From an uncultured Bacteroidales bacterium (GTDB taxonomy: Bacteria > Bacteroidota > Bacteroidia > Bacteroidales > JAFGXI01), in NCBI GenBank assembly GCA_947311115.1, contig CAMZKE010000015.1, positions 1-50,022 of the forward strand: DNA of 50,022 nucleotides. The letters are read 5' to 3'. Position numbers and translations under genes: made by a program. The notes below the pieces were generated by a model. It ran no database searches, was not told the origin of the DNA, and saw only the letters and a list, made by a program, of their open reading frames with translations. Below are positions 375 to 50,004 of this stretch, in pieces; positions within the stretch are counted from its first letter, which is position 1, and the number at the start of each line of letters is the position of its first letter.

Positions 375-1523
375 ATGAAAACAATATATTTATTTTTATT
401 AATCTCATTAACAAGTTTTAACTTTGCTCAAGTGCAGATTAAATCATTTGCCGATAAAAAAGAATCGCAAAATTTTTATACAGAACAAGCGAAATTATGG
501 AAATCTGAAATTGATAAAAATCCTAAAAATGCCAATGCTTGGCAAAACTACTATAAAGCAATTAGATACAACTTTAAGGTTTATGATGTTAACTCTCAAA
601 AAGTATTAGATAATATTTTGGTTGATATGCAAAAAGTATTACCAAATTCGTTTGAGTATAATTATTTGATGTATTATAATTCTACAGATTGGAGTGAAAA
701 CATTGAATATATTGAAAAAGCATATAAAATTAATCCTAATAATGTTGAGCTATATCCGAGCCTAATTACATGCTTTGAGGTAACAAACCAAAAAGAAAAG
801 CGAAATGATATTTTAAAACGATGGTATAAATCAAATACTTTAGAAACCTGGAAATATTATTTAAATTATAACGCTTTAGCTTTTTTAGATTCAAATGCAA
901 TTATTTTTTCATCTGGTGACAACACTATTTATCCTAAATTATTACTACAGCAGGGAGGTAATATTAGAAAAGATGTTAAAGTTATAACTCTACCATTTAT
1001 TATTTACAACAATGGTTATTACTATAATTATATACTTAAAGAGCTTGATATTGATAATTTTAATGAAAAAAATATTGAAATTGATGAAAAATCGGATACT
1101 CCTAAATATTTACAAATGGCAATTGCTAAAATTAAATATATAATTGAAAATACAAACCGCCCAATTTATTTCGACTACAATTATTATCCTAAAATAACAC
1201 CTGCATTTAGCAAAAATCAGTATTTAGAGGGTGTTGTATATAAATATAGTAAAGAGCCATATAATAATATAGCTATTATAAAACGAAATTTTGAAAATAA
1301 TTATTTGTTAGATTATATAAAAACAGATATTGAAGTTATAAAATCGAATGTGCCGGAAGCTTATGGATATGGGTATATTATGCCATTAGATGTATTATAT
1401 AATTATTATAAAGATGCCAATAACACTTTTAAACAAGAGCAAACTAAACGGCTTATTTACAAAATTGGCAAAAAATGTGGTTTACTCGATAAAATAAAAA
1501 AAGTTTACGAATCTGAAAAATAA
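375..1523 (+). CDS. Secreted hypothetical protein, TPR-like N-terminus plus DUF2723-like GDN motif (paralog A)
   Basis: Signal peptide MKTIYLFLLISLTSFNFAQ; NPKNANAWQNYYKA; SSGDNTIYPKLLLQQGGNIRKDVKVITL. Confidence 0.6.
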   Translation: MKTIYLFLLISLTSFNFAQVQIKSFADKKESQNFYTEQAKLWKSEIDKNPKNANAWQNYYKAIRYNFKVYDVNSQKVLDNILVDMQKVLPNSFEYNYLMYYNSTDWSENIEYIEKAYKINPNNVELYPSLITCFEVTNQKEKRNDILKRWYKSNTLETWKYYLNYNALAFLDSNAIIFSSGDNTIYPKLLLQQGGNIRKDVKVITLPFIIYNNGYYYNYILKELDIDNFNEKNIEIDEKSDTPKYLQMAIAKIKYIIENTNRPIYFDYNYYPKITPAFSKNQYLEGVVYKYSKEPYNNIAIIKRNFENNYLLDYIKTDIEVIKSNVPEAYGYGYIMPLDVLYNYYKDANNTFKQEQTKRLIYKIGKKCGLLDKIKKVYESEK

Positions 1524-11155: not shown

Positions 11156-12706
11156 TTATATTTTGATGCCAATAATTAAAATATCGTCAATTTGCTCAAA
11201 ATTTCCTTTCCATTCATTATGATAACTATCTAATAACTCTTTCTGTTGAGTCATAGTTTTATCTTTATTAGTAATTAAAAGCTCTTTTAAAGCTTTGGTT
11301 TTTAGCCTTTTTCCTTTTTTTCCACCAAATTGATCGGCATAGCCATCAGAAAACATATATAAAATATCCCCTTTGCTAAGTTTAAATTTATAAGAACTAA
11401 ATGTTTTCATTTTACTATAAATAGAAATAGGCATTTTGTCGGGTTTTATTTCGTAAAAACCTTCTAAACCTAACAGGTTGTCAAAATCTGTTAGGTTTCG
11501 TTTATCATTTGTAATTACATAAAGAGGGTTATTTGCTCCCGAAAATTGTAGTGTATTAGTCTCGTGGTCAACAGATATTATTGCCATATCCATACCGTCA
11601 TTTTGTTCACCTAGTTCTCCTTTTTGTTTTAATGAATGTATAATTTCTTTTCTTAAAACAGATAAAATTTCAGATGTATCAGTAATTAATTCTTTTTCAA
11701 CAATATCTCTTAACATTGAAGAGCCAAGCATACTCATAAATGCACCCGGAACGCCATGTCCTGTACAATCTACAGCAGCAACAATAGTTTTATTATTTAC
11801 ATTTGCCCACCAATAAAAATCTCCTGACACTTTATCTTTAGGTTTATATAAAATAAAATAGTCTGAAAAATATTTATTCAATAAATCATCTGTTGGTAAA
11901 ATTGCTTCTTGAAGTTTTGTTGCATAATTTATACTTTGGTTCACTTCTTCATGTTTTATTTCAAGCTGTTTTTTTGTTTTGTTTAATTCATCTCTTTGTG
12001 TAGTAATTTCCTCTATCAACTGTTTTAATTCCTCATTGTTTTCTGATAATACATTTTTTTGCCTATTAATTAATAGTTGCTGTATAAATGTTTTACGCGT
12101 ATATATTTCAATTAAATAATTACCAATAATAAGCGATAATGCAATTGTTATTAGAAAGAACATATTACTGTATAAATCTAATTGTGTAAGATTTTGTATA
12201 AATTTAGCAACAATAAAATAAGATACTATTGTAATAGTATAATTGAAAATCATATATACTACTCGTATTCTCATAGCTATGGCAGCAGTCATAATTAATG
12301 TAATTCCGACGTAATAATGGTTAAATGAGTATTCTTGAATTGTACTTGTATATAAAAGTAATATTACAGCAATATTTATTAATAAGTTGATGAATGTTGA
12401 AATATATTGGAAATTAGTGATAAAGAATTTATTCTTCTTTACAAAAATAAACCCAATAACACTAGGTAAAACAACCATAAAAAAACGTAATATCCATTTT
12501 GTTTTATATGTTTGTGGAGAGCTATAATAATCGAAAGCAAAATATGGAAAAGCGATAATAACTATTATAAATAATGTAAACTTAAAAATAGATATTGCTT
12601 CTTTATTATAATGATAAGAAAAATCTTTATTTTGATTTTTATCTAAATACGGAAGTTTAACGTATTTAATAAAAGATAATATACCCGTATATAATTTAGA
12701 TGTCAT
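11156..12706 (-). CDS. Membrane-bound SpoIIE-type PP2C serine phosphatase
   Basis: N-terminal TM region, coiled coil, then LYKPKDKVSGDFYWW...AAVDCTGHGVPGAFMSMLG...LQFSGANNPLYVI. Confidence 0.9.
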   Translation of the reverse strand: MTSKLYTGILSFIKYVKLPYLDKNQNKDFSYHYNKEAISIFKFTLFIIVIIAFPYFAFDYYSSPQTYKTKWILRFFMVVLPSVIGFIFVKKNKFFITNFQYISTFINLLINIAVILLLYTSTIQEYSFNHYYVGITLIMTAAIAMRIRVVYMIFNYTITIVSYFIVAKFIQNLTQLDLYSNMFFLITIALSLIIGNYLIEIYTRKTFIQQLLINRQKNVLSENNEELKQLIEEITTQRDELNKTKKQLEIKHEEVNQSINYATKLQEAILPTDDLLNKYFSDYFILYKPKDKVSGDFYWWANVNNKTIVAAVDCTGHGVPGAFMSMLGSSMLRDIVEKELITDTSEILSVLRKEIIHSLKQKGELGEQNDGMDMAIISVDHETNTLQFSGANNPLYVITNDKRNLTDFDNLLGLEGFYEIKPDKMPISIYSKMKTFSSYKFKLSKGDILYMFSDGYADQFGGKKGKRLKTKALKELLITNKDKTMTQQKELLDSYHNEWKGNFEQIDDILIIGIKI

Positions 12707-23182: not shown

Positions 23183-23429
23183 TAATACTATTTATAAATT
23201 ACTGAACTTCCGCACCCAATATAATCAATATATACAATAGTTTTAAAAATTATTGTCAGCGGTGGCTTTTTTTTACTTTTCAGCTACAGGGAAAGTAAAA
23301 GCCTTTCTGGCTTGAATACATATAATGCAAATTAGGAATTTCGGAATCTTACACAAAACCGTAGTAAAGACTTAATAAGTTGTAAATAAATGACTTATCA
23401 TAGCATTAAATATTGTTTTTCATAATTAT

Positions 23430-23460
23430 ACCTCGTTAGCTTACGGCGAGGATATTCATT
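23430..23460. repeat. Family 2 repeat, partial copy D
   Basis: ACCTCGTTAGCTTACGGCGAGGATATTCATT; matches the 3' hairpin of the 36208 copy. Confidence 0.6.
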
Positions 23461-27955: not shown

Positions 27956-28034
27956 TTTAAATTATTATTGCTATACAAAAATAGTAAAAATTATTTAGTA
28001 CTGCTTATTTGATTATTGTTTAACAAATTTTATT

Positions 28035-28173
28035 AACTCGCATTATTCATGTAATTTAATAAAAACTAGGTTAATTTATTTAAAACTAGGCAAATAATGC
28101 ATTTTGGGTTAACCATGATTAGTTATTACGGGTTTAATTGCTATATTGTTAATTTCTATGAATAATGCGGGTT
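28035..28173. repeat. MITE-like family 1, 139-bp copy
   Basis: AACTCGCATTATTCAT ... ATGAATAATGCGGGTT; TA on both sides of ACTCGC...GCGGGT. Confidence 0.8.
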
Positions 28174-28190
28174 AGCAATTTTTACAAAGC

Positions 28191-29033: not shown

Positions 29034-29041
29034 ATTTTTAT

Positions 29042-29114
29042 TCTGTTTGGGTTTAATTCACGTATAAAAGAATAGTGTTCCTAAACGATAGCTTATCCGC
29101 CTATTGCGAATAAA
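29042..29114. repeat. Family 2 repeat, copy C (lacks first hairpin)
   Basis: TCTGTTTGGGTTTAATTCACGTATAAAAGAATAGTGTTCCTAAACGATA matches the 36208 copy with a ~13-nt deletion. Confidence 0.75.
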
Positions 29115-29118
29115 TTTT

Positions 29119-29556: not shown

Positions 29557-29581
29557 CTGTATATATATTTAAATTATTTAA

Positions 29582-29672
29582 TTTGTTTGGTTTTAATTCC
29601 CAGTCTCTTGGTACGTAAAAAAATAGTATTCTAAAACGATATCTCTTTCGCTTGCGGTGAGGAGATTCATTT
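29582..29672. repeat. Family 2 repeat, copy B
   Basis: TTGTTTGGTTTTAATTCCCAGTCTCTTGGTACGT...AATAGTATTC.AAAACGATATCTCTTTCGCTTGCGGTGAGGAGATTCATTT. Confidence 0.8.
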
Positions 29673-31577: not shown

Positions 31578-31589
31578 TTTAATCTGTTT

Positions 31590-31804
31590 AACCCGCATTA
31601 TTCATGTGATTTAGCAAAAAATGAAGTTAATTTATTTAAAACCAGACAAATAACGCAAAATGTAAATCACCAAAATTTGGATAATTAATTTTTTCATATA
31701 CATTTTCCTGATACTTCGTTGCAAACCATTTGCAGTATTCATATACAGCAGCATGGTTCGTCGCCTCATCTCAGAAAAAGAAAAATGCATGAATAATCCG
31801 GGTT
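31590..31804. repeat. MITE-like family 1, 215-bp composite copy
   Basis: AACCCGCATTATTCAT(G) ... (C)ATGAATAATCCGGGTT, TA on both sides; left part matches 28052-28107, right part matches 34441-34532 inverted. Confidence 0.82.
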
Positions 31805-31957
31805 ATACCAACTTGATATCAAAGTACGTTATATAGCGTATTTTGGTGTTGAGTTGGTATTATATTGATTTTTGATAGTGTTATTAAAAATATCAACATC
31901 GTATTAAATTCATTGAAAATTATTACTAATTTAGCAGCTGAATAGAACAATACACAA

Positions 31958-34440: not shown

Positions 34441-34532
34441 TAACCCATGTTATTCATACGTTCTTCTTTTTCTTATATGAGGCGACGAACCATTTAGCTG
34501 TATGAATACTGGAAATGGTTTGCAATAAAGTA
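34441..34532. repeat. MITE-like family 1, partial/one-ended copy
   Basis: TAACCCATGTTATTCATACG...GAGGCGACGAACCATTTAGCTGTATGAATACTGGAAATGGTTTGCAATAAAGTA; reverse complement aligns with 31709-31805. Confidence 0.75.
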
Positions 34533-34998: not shown

Positions 34999-36207
34999 AT
35001 GAATACACAAGACTATATCGAAAGAGAGGGCAAATATGGTGCACATAACTATCATCCGCTTCCTGTTGTTTTAGAAAAAGGCGAAGGGATTTTTGTTTGG
35101 GATGTTGAAGGAAAAAAATATTACGATTTCCTTTCAGCTTATTCAGCTGTTAATCAAGGGCACTGCCACCCTAAAATTGTAAAAGCTTTAACAGATCAAG
35201 CTAAAGTATTAAATTTAACTTCACGTGCATTTTATTCTGCTGCATTAGGCGAGTACGAAGAGTATGTAACAAAATATTTTGGATACGATAAAGTATTACC
35301 AATGAATTCGGGTGCTGAAGCAGACGAAACAGCTTTAAAACTTTGTAGAAAATGGGGGTACGATGTAAAAGGAATAGAAGAAAATAAAGCAAAAATAATT
35401 GTATGTGATGGAAACTTCCATGGTCGTACAATAACTATTATATCAATGTCAACCGACCCTGAATCGTACAAAGGTTTTGGTCCATATACACCAGGCTTTG
35501 AGGTTGTACCTTATAACGATATTCCTGCATTAGAAAAAGCATTAGAAGACCCTAATGTAGCAGGCTTTTTGGTAGAGCCTATTCAAGGTGAAGCAGGAGT
35601 TTATGTTCCTGAAGATGGTTATTTAAAAGCAGCATACGATTTATGTAAAGCTAAAAATGTACTATTTATTGCTGATGAGGTTCAAACAGGAATTGCACGT
35701 ACAGGTAAACTATTAGCTGTTGACCATGAAGATGTTCATCCTGATATATTAATTTTAGGAAAAGCTATTTCTGGTGGTGTTTATCCTATTTCTGCCGTAT
35801 TAGCTGACGACGATATTATGCTAGCAATTAAACCCGGCGAGCATGGCTCTACATACGGAGGGAATCCGATGGCTGCAAAAGTTGCTATTGCTGCACTTGA
35901 GGTTGTTAAAGAAGAAAAACTTGCTGAAAACGCAGAGCGTTTAGGCAAAATTTTCAGAGATGAGCTAAGAAAAATTGATTCAGATATGATTGAATTAGTT
36001 AGAGGTAAAGGTTTATTAAATGCAGTAATTATTAAGCCTAAAAATGGTAAATTTGCGTGGGATGTATGTGTTGCAATGAAAGAAAATGGTCTTATTGCTA
36101 AACCAACTCACGACCATATTATTCGTTTTGCTCCACCTCTTGTAATTACTGAAGAACAAATTATGGAGGCTGTTGAAATAATTAAGAAAACTTTAGCTCA
36201 GTTTTAA
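34999..36207 (+). CDS. rocD: Ornithine--oxo-acid aminotransferase
   Basis: [93 protein letters not shown]. Confidence 0.96.
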
Positions 36208-36300
36208 TCTGTTTGGGTTTAATTCCCCGTCCCTTGGGACGTATAAAAGAATAGTATTCCATAACGATACCTCGTCCGCTTGCGGCGAGGAGATTCATTT
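36208..36300. repeat. Family 2 repeat, copy A (most complete)
   Basis: Contains CGTCCCTTGGGACG (36228-36241) and CCTCGTCCGCTTGCGGCGAGG (36270-36290); shared with 29582, 29042 and 23430 copies. Confidence 0.8.
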
Positions 36301-36318
36301 AATAGAGTTGAAAAAATA

Positions 36319-36357
36319 AAAAATAGCCATTAATTTAATTTTGATGGCTATTTTTTT
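36319..36357. terminator. Bidirectional terminator
   Basis: AAAATAGCCAT-TAATTTAATTTTG-ATGGCTATTTTTTT. Confidence 0.7.
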
Positions 36358-49921: not shown

Positions 49922-50004
49922 GTAAGCGTTCGGCAAAGCACGTACATATATTATTTCAAAGGTGTAAGCGTTCGGCAAAGCACGTACATATATTATTTCA
50001 AAGG
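49922..50004 (+). repeat. Tandem 41-bp repeat resembling an IS66-family terminus
   Basis: GTAAGCGTTCGGCAAAGCACGTACATATATTATTTCAAAGG at 49922-49962 and identically at 49964-50004; first 20 nt differ at 3 positions from the left-edge terminus. Confidence 0.85.

Follow-up and report, generated by a model that had tools for sequence, protein, structure and literature searches.

A 91-nt intergenic repeat of an uncultured Bacteroidales bacterium is very probably a non-autonomous IS200-type element

Introduction

Several kinds of short palindromic elements are related to single-strand transposition. IS608 and ISDra2 carry subterminal imperfect hairpins and insert 3' of a short fixed motif, with a strong preference for the base that follows it (TTAC|C and TTGAT|G, respectively), cleavage positions being set by guide complementarity (PMC5934647); both insert into the lagging-strand template (PMC6006769). 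PATEs of Haloquadratum walsbyi are short and transposase-free, lack terminal inverted repeats, cause no target duplication, and have near-terminal palindromes matching IS605-type elements. Since the IS200-type transposases of H. walsbyi are nearly all pseudogenes, PATE mobilisation is hard to explain (PMC3119063). REP/BIME and CGTC-/GTAG-tagged repeats, in turn, are extragenic, palindromic and of high copy number (PMC3733652).

Here we characterize a repeat from a window of 50,022 nt (contig CAMZKE010000015.1, positions 1 to 50,022) of the draft genome of an uncultured Bacteroidales bacterium. The element is the same kind of thing as the Haloquadratum PATEs, sharing every PATE trait listed above, including the transposase puzzle. 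Unlike PATEs, it is bacterial and forms one mostly homogeneous 91-nt family of about 100 copies, for which IS200-subgroup ends, the target TTTAA and an orientation bias are shown. With IS608 and ISDra2 it has in common the imperfect subterminal hairpins, the fixed motif with a preferred +1 base and the lagging-strand-template bias, and a guide-cleavage complementarity like theirs is predicted; it differs from both in having neither tnpA nor tnpB and in using TTTAA followed by T. It resembles REP/BIME in being extragenic, palindromic and abundant, but consists of a two-hairpin 91-nt unit with IS200 ends and has neither an unpaired tag nor RAYT linkage.

Results and Discussion

Copies and scope of the repeat family

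The 3.53-Mb assembly contains at least 102 copies, 52 forward and 50 reverse, as detected with a 20-nt left-end pattern (at most three mismatches); the reversed control pattern gives no match across the same 3.53 Mb. The four window copies proposed by the first-pass annotation do form one family in an nhmmer profile search of 1.25 Mb of the genome, with matches at 36204-36298 (8e-32), 29578-29670 (1.9e-21), 29039-29114 (2.2e-12) and 23405-23458 (1.3e-7, right half only). Their delimitation is as follows.

36208..36298, + strand: complete 91-nt element, very probably non-autonomous and IS200-type, TCTG...GATTCAT (boundaries in 90 copies; empty sites)
29582..29670, + strand: older copy in the interval from the PPIase start to the fabI stop (nhmmer 1.9e-21)
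29042..29118, + strand: decayed copy downstream of PPIase, right end approximate (nhmmer 2.2e-12; alignment)
23405..23459, + strand: right-half remnant adjoining the yaaA stop (nhmmer 1.3e-7)

The copy at 29042 has lost its left hairpin by deletion, and its right hairpin is decayed. Within the family, divergence from the consensus is zero in 14 copies and at most 2% in 40, but up to 35% in others, which indicates a recent spread over older waves. On the order-wide scale, a strict search with the exact two-end pattern recovered the element only in the source genome and in the relative G003. A looser relative of similar size occurs in G017 (L038), and the same-genus genome G001 contains no copies. 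A known RNA family was rejected as candidate, as Rfam on the window gave nothing but a tRNA, and searches of open-access papers yielded no report of the family in Bacteroidales. At the contig end, the window also holds two perfect 41-nt tandem copies of GTAAGCGTTCGGCAAAGCACGTACATATATTATTTCAAAGG (49922-50004).

Structure of the element

Among 90 well-preserved copies, the element is about 91 nt long, has TTTAA as its 5' neighbour, starts with TCTG and ends with GATTCAT, followed by T. Flanking conservation drops abruptly beyond the left border TTTAA|TCTG and the right border GATTCAT(T)|. The window copy is composed of the following parts.

36203..36207, + strand: target and left cleavage motif TTTAA, its TAA being the rocD stop (98-100% conserved in 90 copies; sequence)
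36221..36224, + strand: AATT, predicted as left guide by its complementarity to the TTAA of the target (inspection, IS608 rule, PMC5934647)
36228..36241, + strand: left-end hairpin CGTCC-CTTG-GGACG (fold, pair counts)
36266..36269, + strand: GATA, predicted as right guide by its complementarity to TCAT and located at the right-hairpin foot (inspection, IS608 analogy)
36270..36290, + strand: right-end hairpin CCTCG-T-CCG-CTTG-CGG-CGAGG with a bulged T (fold, pair counts, cross-species alignment)
36295..36299, + strand: right cleavage motif TCAT plus preferred +1 T (98%), exact end uncertain by 1 nt

Both hairpins quoted in the first-pass annotation are thus present, by fold and by sequence, and a spacer of about 28 nt separates them. 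Their conservation, on which that annotation had staked its reading, is evident: in 88 distinct copies the stems are kept, with 92.7% of cells forming standard pairs versus 43-60% when partners are slid, and two-sided changes occur in 9 of the 16 stem pairs. For the window copy, DNA folding gives a z-score of -2.4. By inspection, AATT is complementary to TTAA and GATA to TCAT, the predicted left guide lying 3 nt off the hairpin foot. Inspection likewise reveals no terminal inverted repeats, TCTGTTTGGG being unlike the reverse complement of the right terminus ATGAATCTCC. With 91 nt, the element is too short to encode a transposase.

Relationship to intact IS200 elements

In other bacteria, the two ends of the repeat flank intact IS200/IS605 TnpA genes, which identifies it as an IS200 derivative without tnpA, that is, a PATE. 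The element of Bacteroidales GH49 (G009; L039/L198) consists of TTTTAA|TCTCTTTGGGTTTAATTCCC plus hairpin, a TnpA ORF, and a right hairpin built in the same way. Both ends are also shared by intact elements of Paludibacter sp. UBA6032 (L230), Bacteroidetes Cfx3-09 (L233, L235) and others, whose right end, GATACCnCGTCCGCTTGCGGCGnGGAGATTCAT, hardly differs from that of the repeat; the Paludibacter UBA6032 and Cfx3-09 elements have the TTTAA flank and a left end GGG...AATTCCC. Looser relatives were found in further phyla. The TnpAs of the intact elements score above the NCBIfam IS200/IS605 and Pfam Y1_Tnp cut-offs, and the GH49 protein also matches solved transposases, including that of IS608. Between elements, the inner stem of the right hairpin varies in a compensatory manner (CCG/CGG, GGG/CCC, CAG/CTG, ATG/CAT, ACC/GGT). 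Hence the repeat is close to the IS200 elements of Cfx3-09 (L233), Paludibacter UBA6032 (L230) and GH49 (L198) at both ends and in its TTTAA flank, and differs in that these carry tnpA between the ends where the repeat has only its short spacer.

We therefore consider it very probable that an insertion sequence of the IS200 subgroup (IS200/IS605 family) gave rise to the repeat, a non-autonomous derivative whose left and right ends are joined, whose tnpA is gone, and which would have been moved in trans. A mobile element had been among the options of the first-pass annotation. A shorter fusion of left and right ends, about 50 nt with a single hairpin (TTTAATCTTTAGGGTTTAATTCCCCGCTGCTTGCGGCGAGGAGATTCATT), was observed at L041 (G039:C53:13096-13146), with one exact match in G039.

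The same annotation had favoured a 3'-UTR repeat comparable in placement to REP/BIME. Mobilisation of a REP/BIME would have been the work of a RAYT transposase domesticated by the host, and the genome does contain two RAYT-like Y1 genes (L032 and L034, both below the curated NCBIfam cut-off) besides a repeat with the extragenic, palindromic, high-copy habit of REPs. However, the repeat flanks neither of the RAYT-like genes: no family copy lies near L032 or L034, and the palindrome following L032, AGACCTAACAGGTTTTTAAAACCTGTTAGGTCT, is a different one with genome copies of its own. Nor does the consensus show an unpaired GTAG or CGTC tag at a hairpin foot, CGTC occurring only within the stem, and the ends match IS200 elements instead. 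RAYT-gene distance, the separate REP of L032 and the IS200-type ends speak against a REP/RAYT origin, which we reject as highly improbable; as the primary explanation, the REP/BIME-like reading lacks support. With L032 having its own palindrome, the RAYT-like genes are poor candidates for the mobiliser, too.

L032 itself, with the RAYT-like Y1 gene followed by AGACCTAACAGGTTTTTAAAACCTGTTAGGTCT (1234-1297, minus strand) and copies of the latter elsewhere, including window 11468-11496, probably represents a REP/RAYT pair in the same genome. The second RAYT-like Y1 gene, L034 (1483-3096), lies directly upstream of an ORF that, read from its sequence, is putatively cas1-like.

Insertion sites and orientation

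Empty sites were identified with a second interspersed repeat family as yardstick. In the window, this family occupies 28026-28183 and 31581-31805 / 34441-34532; its core CCCGCATTATTCATG has 57 matches in 1.25 Mb. Where the element interrupts this background (C137, C20), the empty sites join at TTTAA with no target duplication. Paralogous pairs (C36/C109, C21/C61, C11/C49) show the same join, again without duplication, and several orthologous loci of the same-genus genome G001 are devoid of the element. At the right end, empty sites disagree by one T (1 nt). Given the +1 base preference in the IS608 literature, we prefer TTTAA|T with the element ending at TCAT.

The leading strand is G-rich and carries the sequence of the lagging-strand template. 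Replication direction was approximated by third-codon-position GC skew. By this proxy, 66 of 91 copies have the element's top strand on the G-rich strand (permutation p 0.0002), with concordance rising to 42/50 at a skew of at least 0.1 and to 19/20 at 0.2 or more, against 52% for the intergenic TTTAA null. Neighbouring copies agree in orientation in 28 of 35 pairs. Orientation relative to whole-sequence GC skew (60/103, p 0.21) and to gene strand bias (p 0.28) is not significant. The observed direction is the expected one, as the G-rich leading strand corresponds to the lagging-strand-template sequence. Thus, by third-codon skew alone of the three proxies, the orientation pattern matches lagging-strand-template insertion as in IS608.

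An insertion preference for hairpin loops was rejected as weak, with only 3 of 90 copies in such loops versus about 1% of control sites. In C36, C46 and C150 of G000, copies reside in loops of palindromes resembling rho-independent terminators.

Unlike copy number, ends, homology, insertion site and orientation, the steps from TnpA binding to pasting are what we infer. A Y1 HUH transposase (TnpA), specific for single strands and acting in trans, would bind both hairpins, and pairing of the guides AATT and GATA with TTAA and TCAT would set the cut positions. The top strand would then be excised as a single-stranded circle and integrate on the 3' side of a TTTAA that lies open in the lagging-strand template.

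Placement relative to genes

Placement statistics refer to 1.25 Mb around the copies, with intergenic TTTAA sites as the null and gene calls by a home-made caller. Not a single copy falls inside a predicted gene, compared with 12,147 of the 15,023 TTTAA sites. A stop codon lies within 15 nt of 31 of 84 copies, where 18.6 are expected (p 0.002), and the left end coincides exactly with a TAA stop in 8 cases versus 2.4 (p 0.003). Copies are overrepresented between convergent genes (19 versus 9.2 expected, p 0.001); fewer than expected come within 30 nt of a gene start (9 versus 24.8). Among 924 genes, 93 (10%) end in TTTAA.

The first-pass annotation was right about placement 3' of genes, and placement relative to stops is indeed non-random, with an enrichment of only 1.7-fold over intergenic TTTAA. 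The gap after the rocD stop, however, is 0 nt instead of 1 nt, the element starting at 36208 directly after TTTAA. Right ends do lie near the stops of yaaA, PPIase and fabI, at a distance of up to about 8 nt. The identities of these three genes are supported by Pfam, and the rocD product gives a match to the class-III aminotransferases. One further feature belongs to the rocD locus.

36318..36356, + strand: terminator-like hairpin that follows the element but does not belong to it

These data bear on the proposal that selection for mRNA stability or for transcription termination maintains the repeat as a 3'-UTR element of the host. The excess of copies near stops and between convergent genes is in line with it, as are the retention of the hairpins across copies and the right hairpin, which is followed by AGATTCATTT and appears terminator-like, in one orientation only, in a loose scan. 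Yet rocD possesses a terminator-like hairpin separate from the element, G001 has no copies, and it is transposons that are marked by sharp ends, strand bias, empty sites and a fixed target motif; the stop bias, moreover, can be explained by target choice and purging. We regard selection as a 3'-UTR element as very unlikely. The proximity to stops is genuine but modest, and for an IS200 derivative its simplest account is largely that the target TTTAA contains TAA and that copies breaking genes or gene starts, as harmful insertions, were lost.

The mobilising enzyme, missing or unassembled

Draft assemblies can lose multicopy insertion sequences. Y1 searches of the genome assembly, a draft from which such a multicopy element may be lost, reveal no intact cognate tnpA. 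In view of the 14 consensus-identical copies, the mobilising enzyme is either missing or unassembled. Candidates for an autonomous copy were rejected: the left-end-only copies at C4 and C72 are followed by an ordinary gene and by another repeat, respectively, not by tnpA. An IS200-type TnpA at C81 is a fragment covering 48-56 positions, with flanks devoid of the element ends, and a TnpA encoded in the relative G003 (L291) lacks the repeat ends of that genome at its flanks. Other Y1 matches comprise the RAYT-like genes and one doubtful weak match at C28.

Two scenarios extend the IS200 derivation. The repeats may be relics of an insertion sequence that is extinct in the lineage, with no current mobility. 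This is compatible with our main explanation and seems a real possibility, though short of an even chance: no cognate tnpA was found in the assembly and some copies have diverged by up to 35%, but so many copies identical or nearly identical to the consensus imply recent spread. Alternatively, about 100 copies in a genome that has no cognate IS200 transposase could point to a still-active mini-transposon, cross-mobilised by another enzyme (e.g., a Y1 protein of the host's RAYT-like type) or by a transposase that arrived briefly with another element, the surviving copies now serving as 3'-UTR elements. We consider this unlikely.

Conclusions

As a derivative of IS200 ends, the repeat raises the question of what moved such recent copies if no cognate TnpA is present. 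A conspicuous intergenic repeat is explained, very probably, as the footprint of a transposon and not as a regulatory REP. The archaeal PATEs thereby gain a counterpart in bacteria whose ends are sharp, whose target is defined and which has inserted about 100 times in a single genome, where single-strand transposition at replication forks would be recorded as an orientation pattern.
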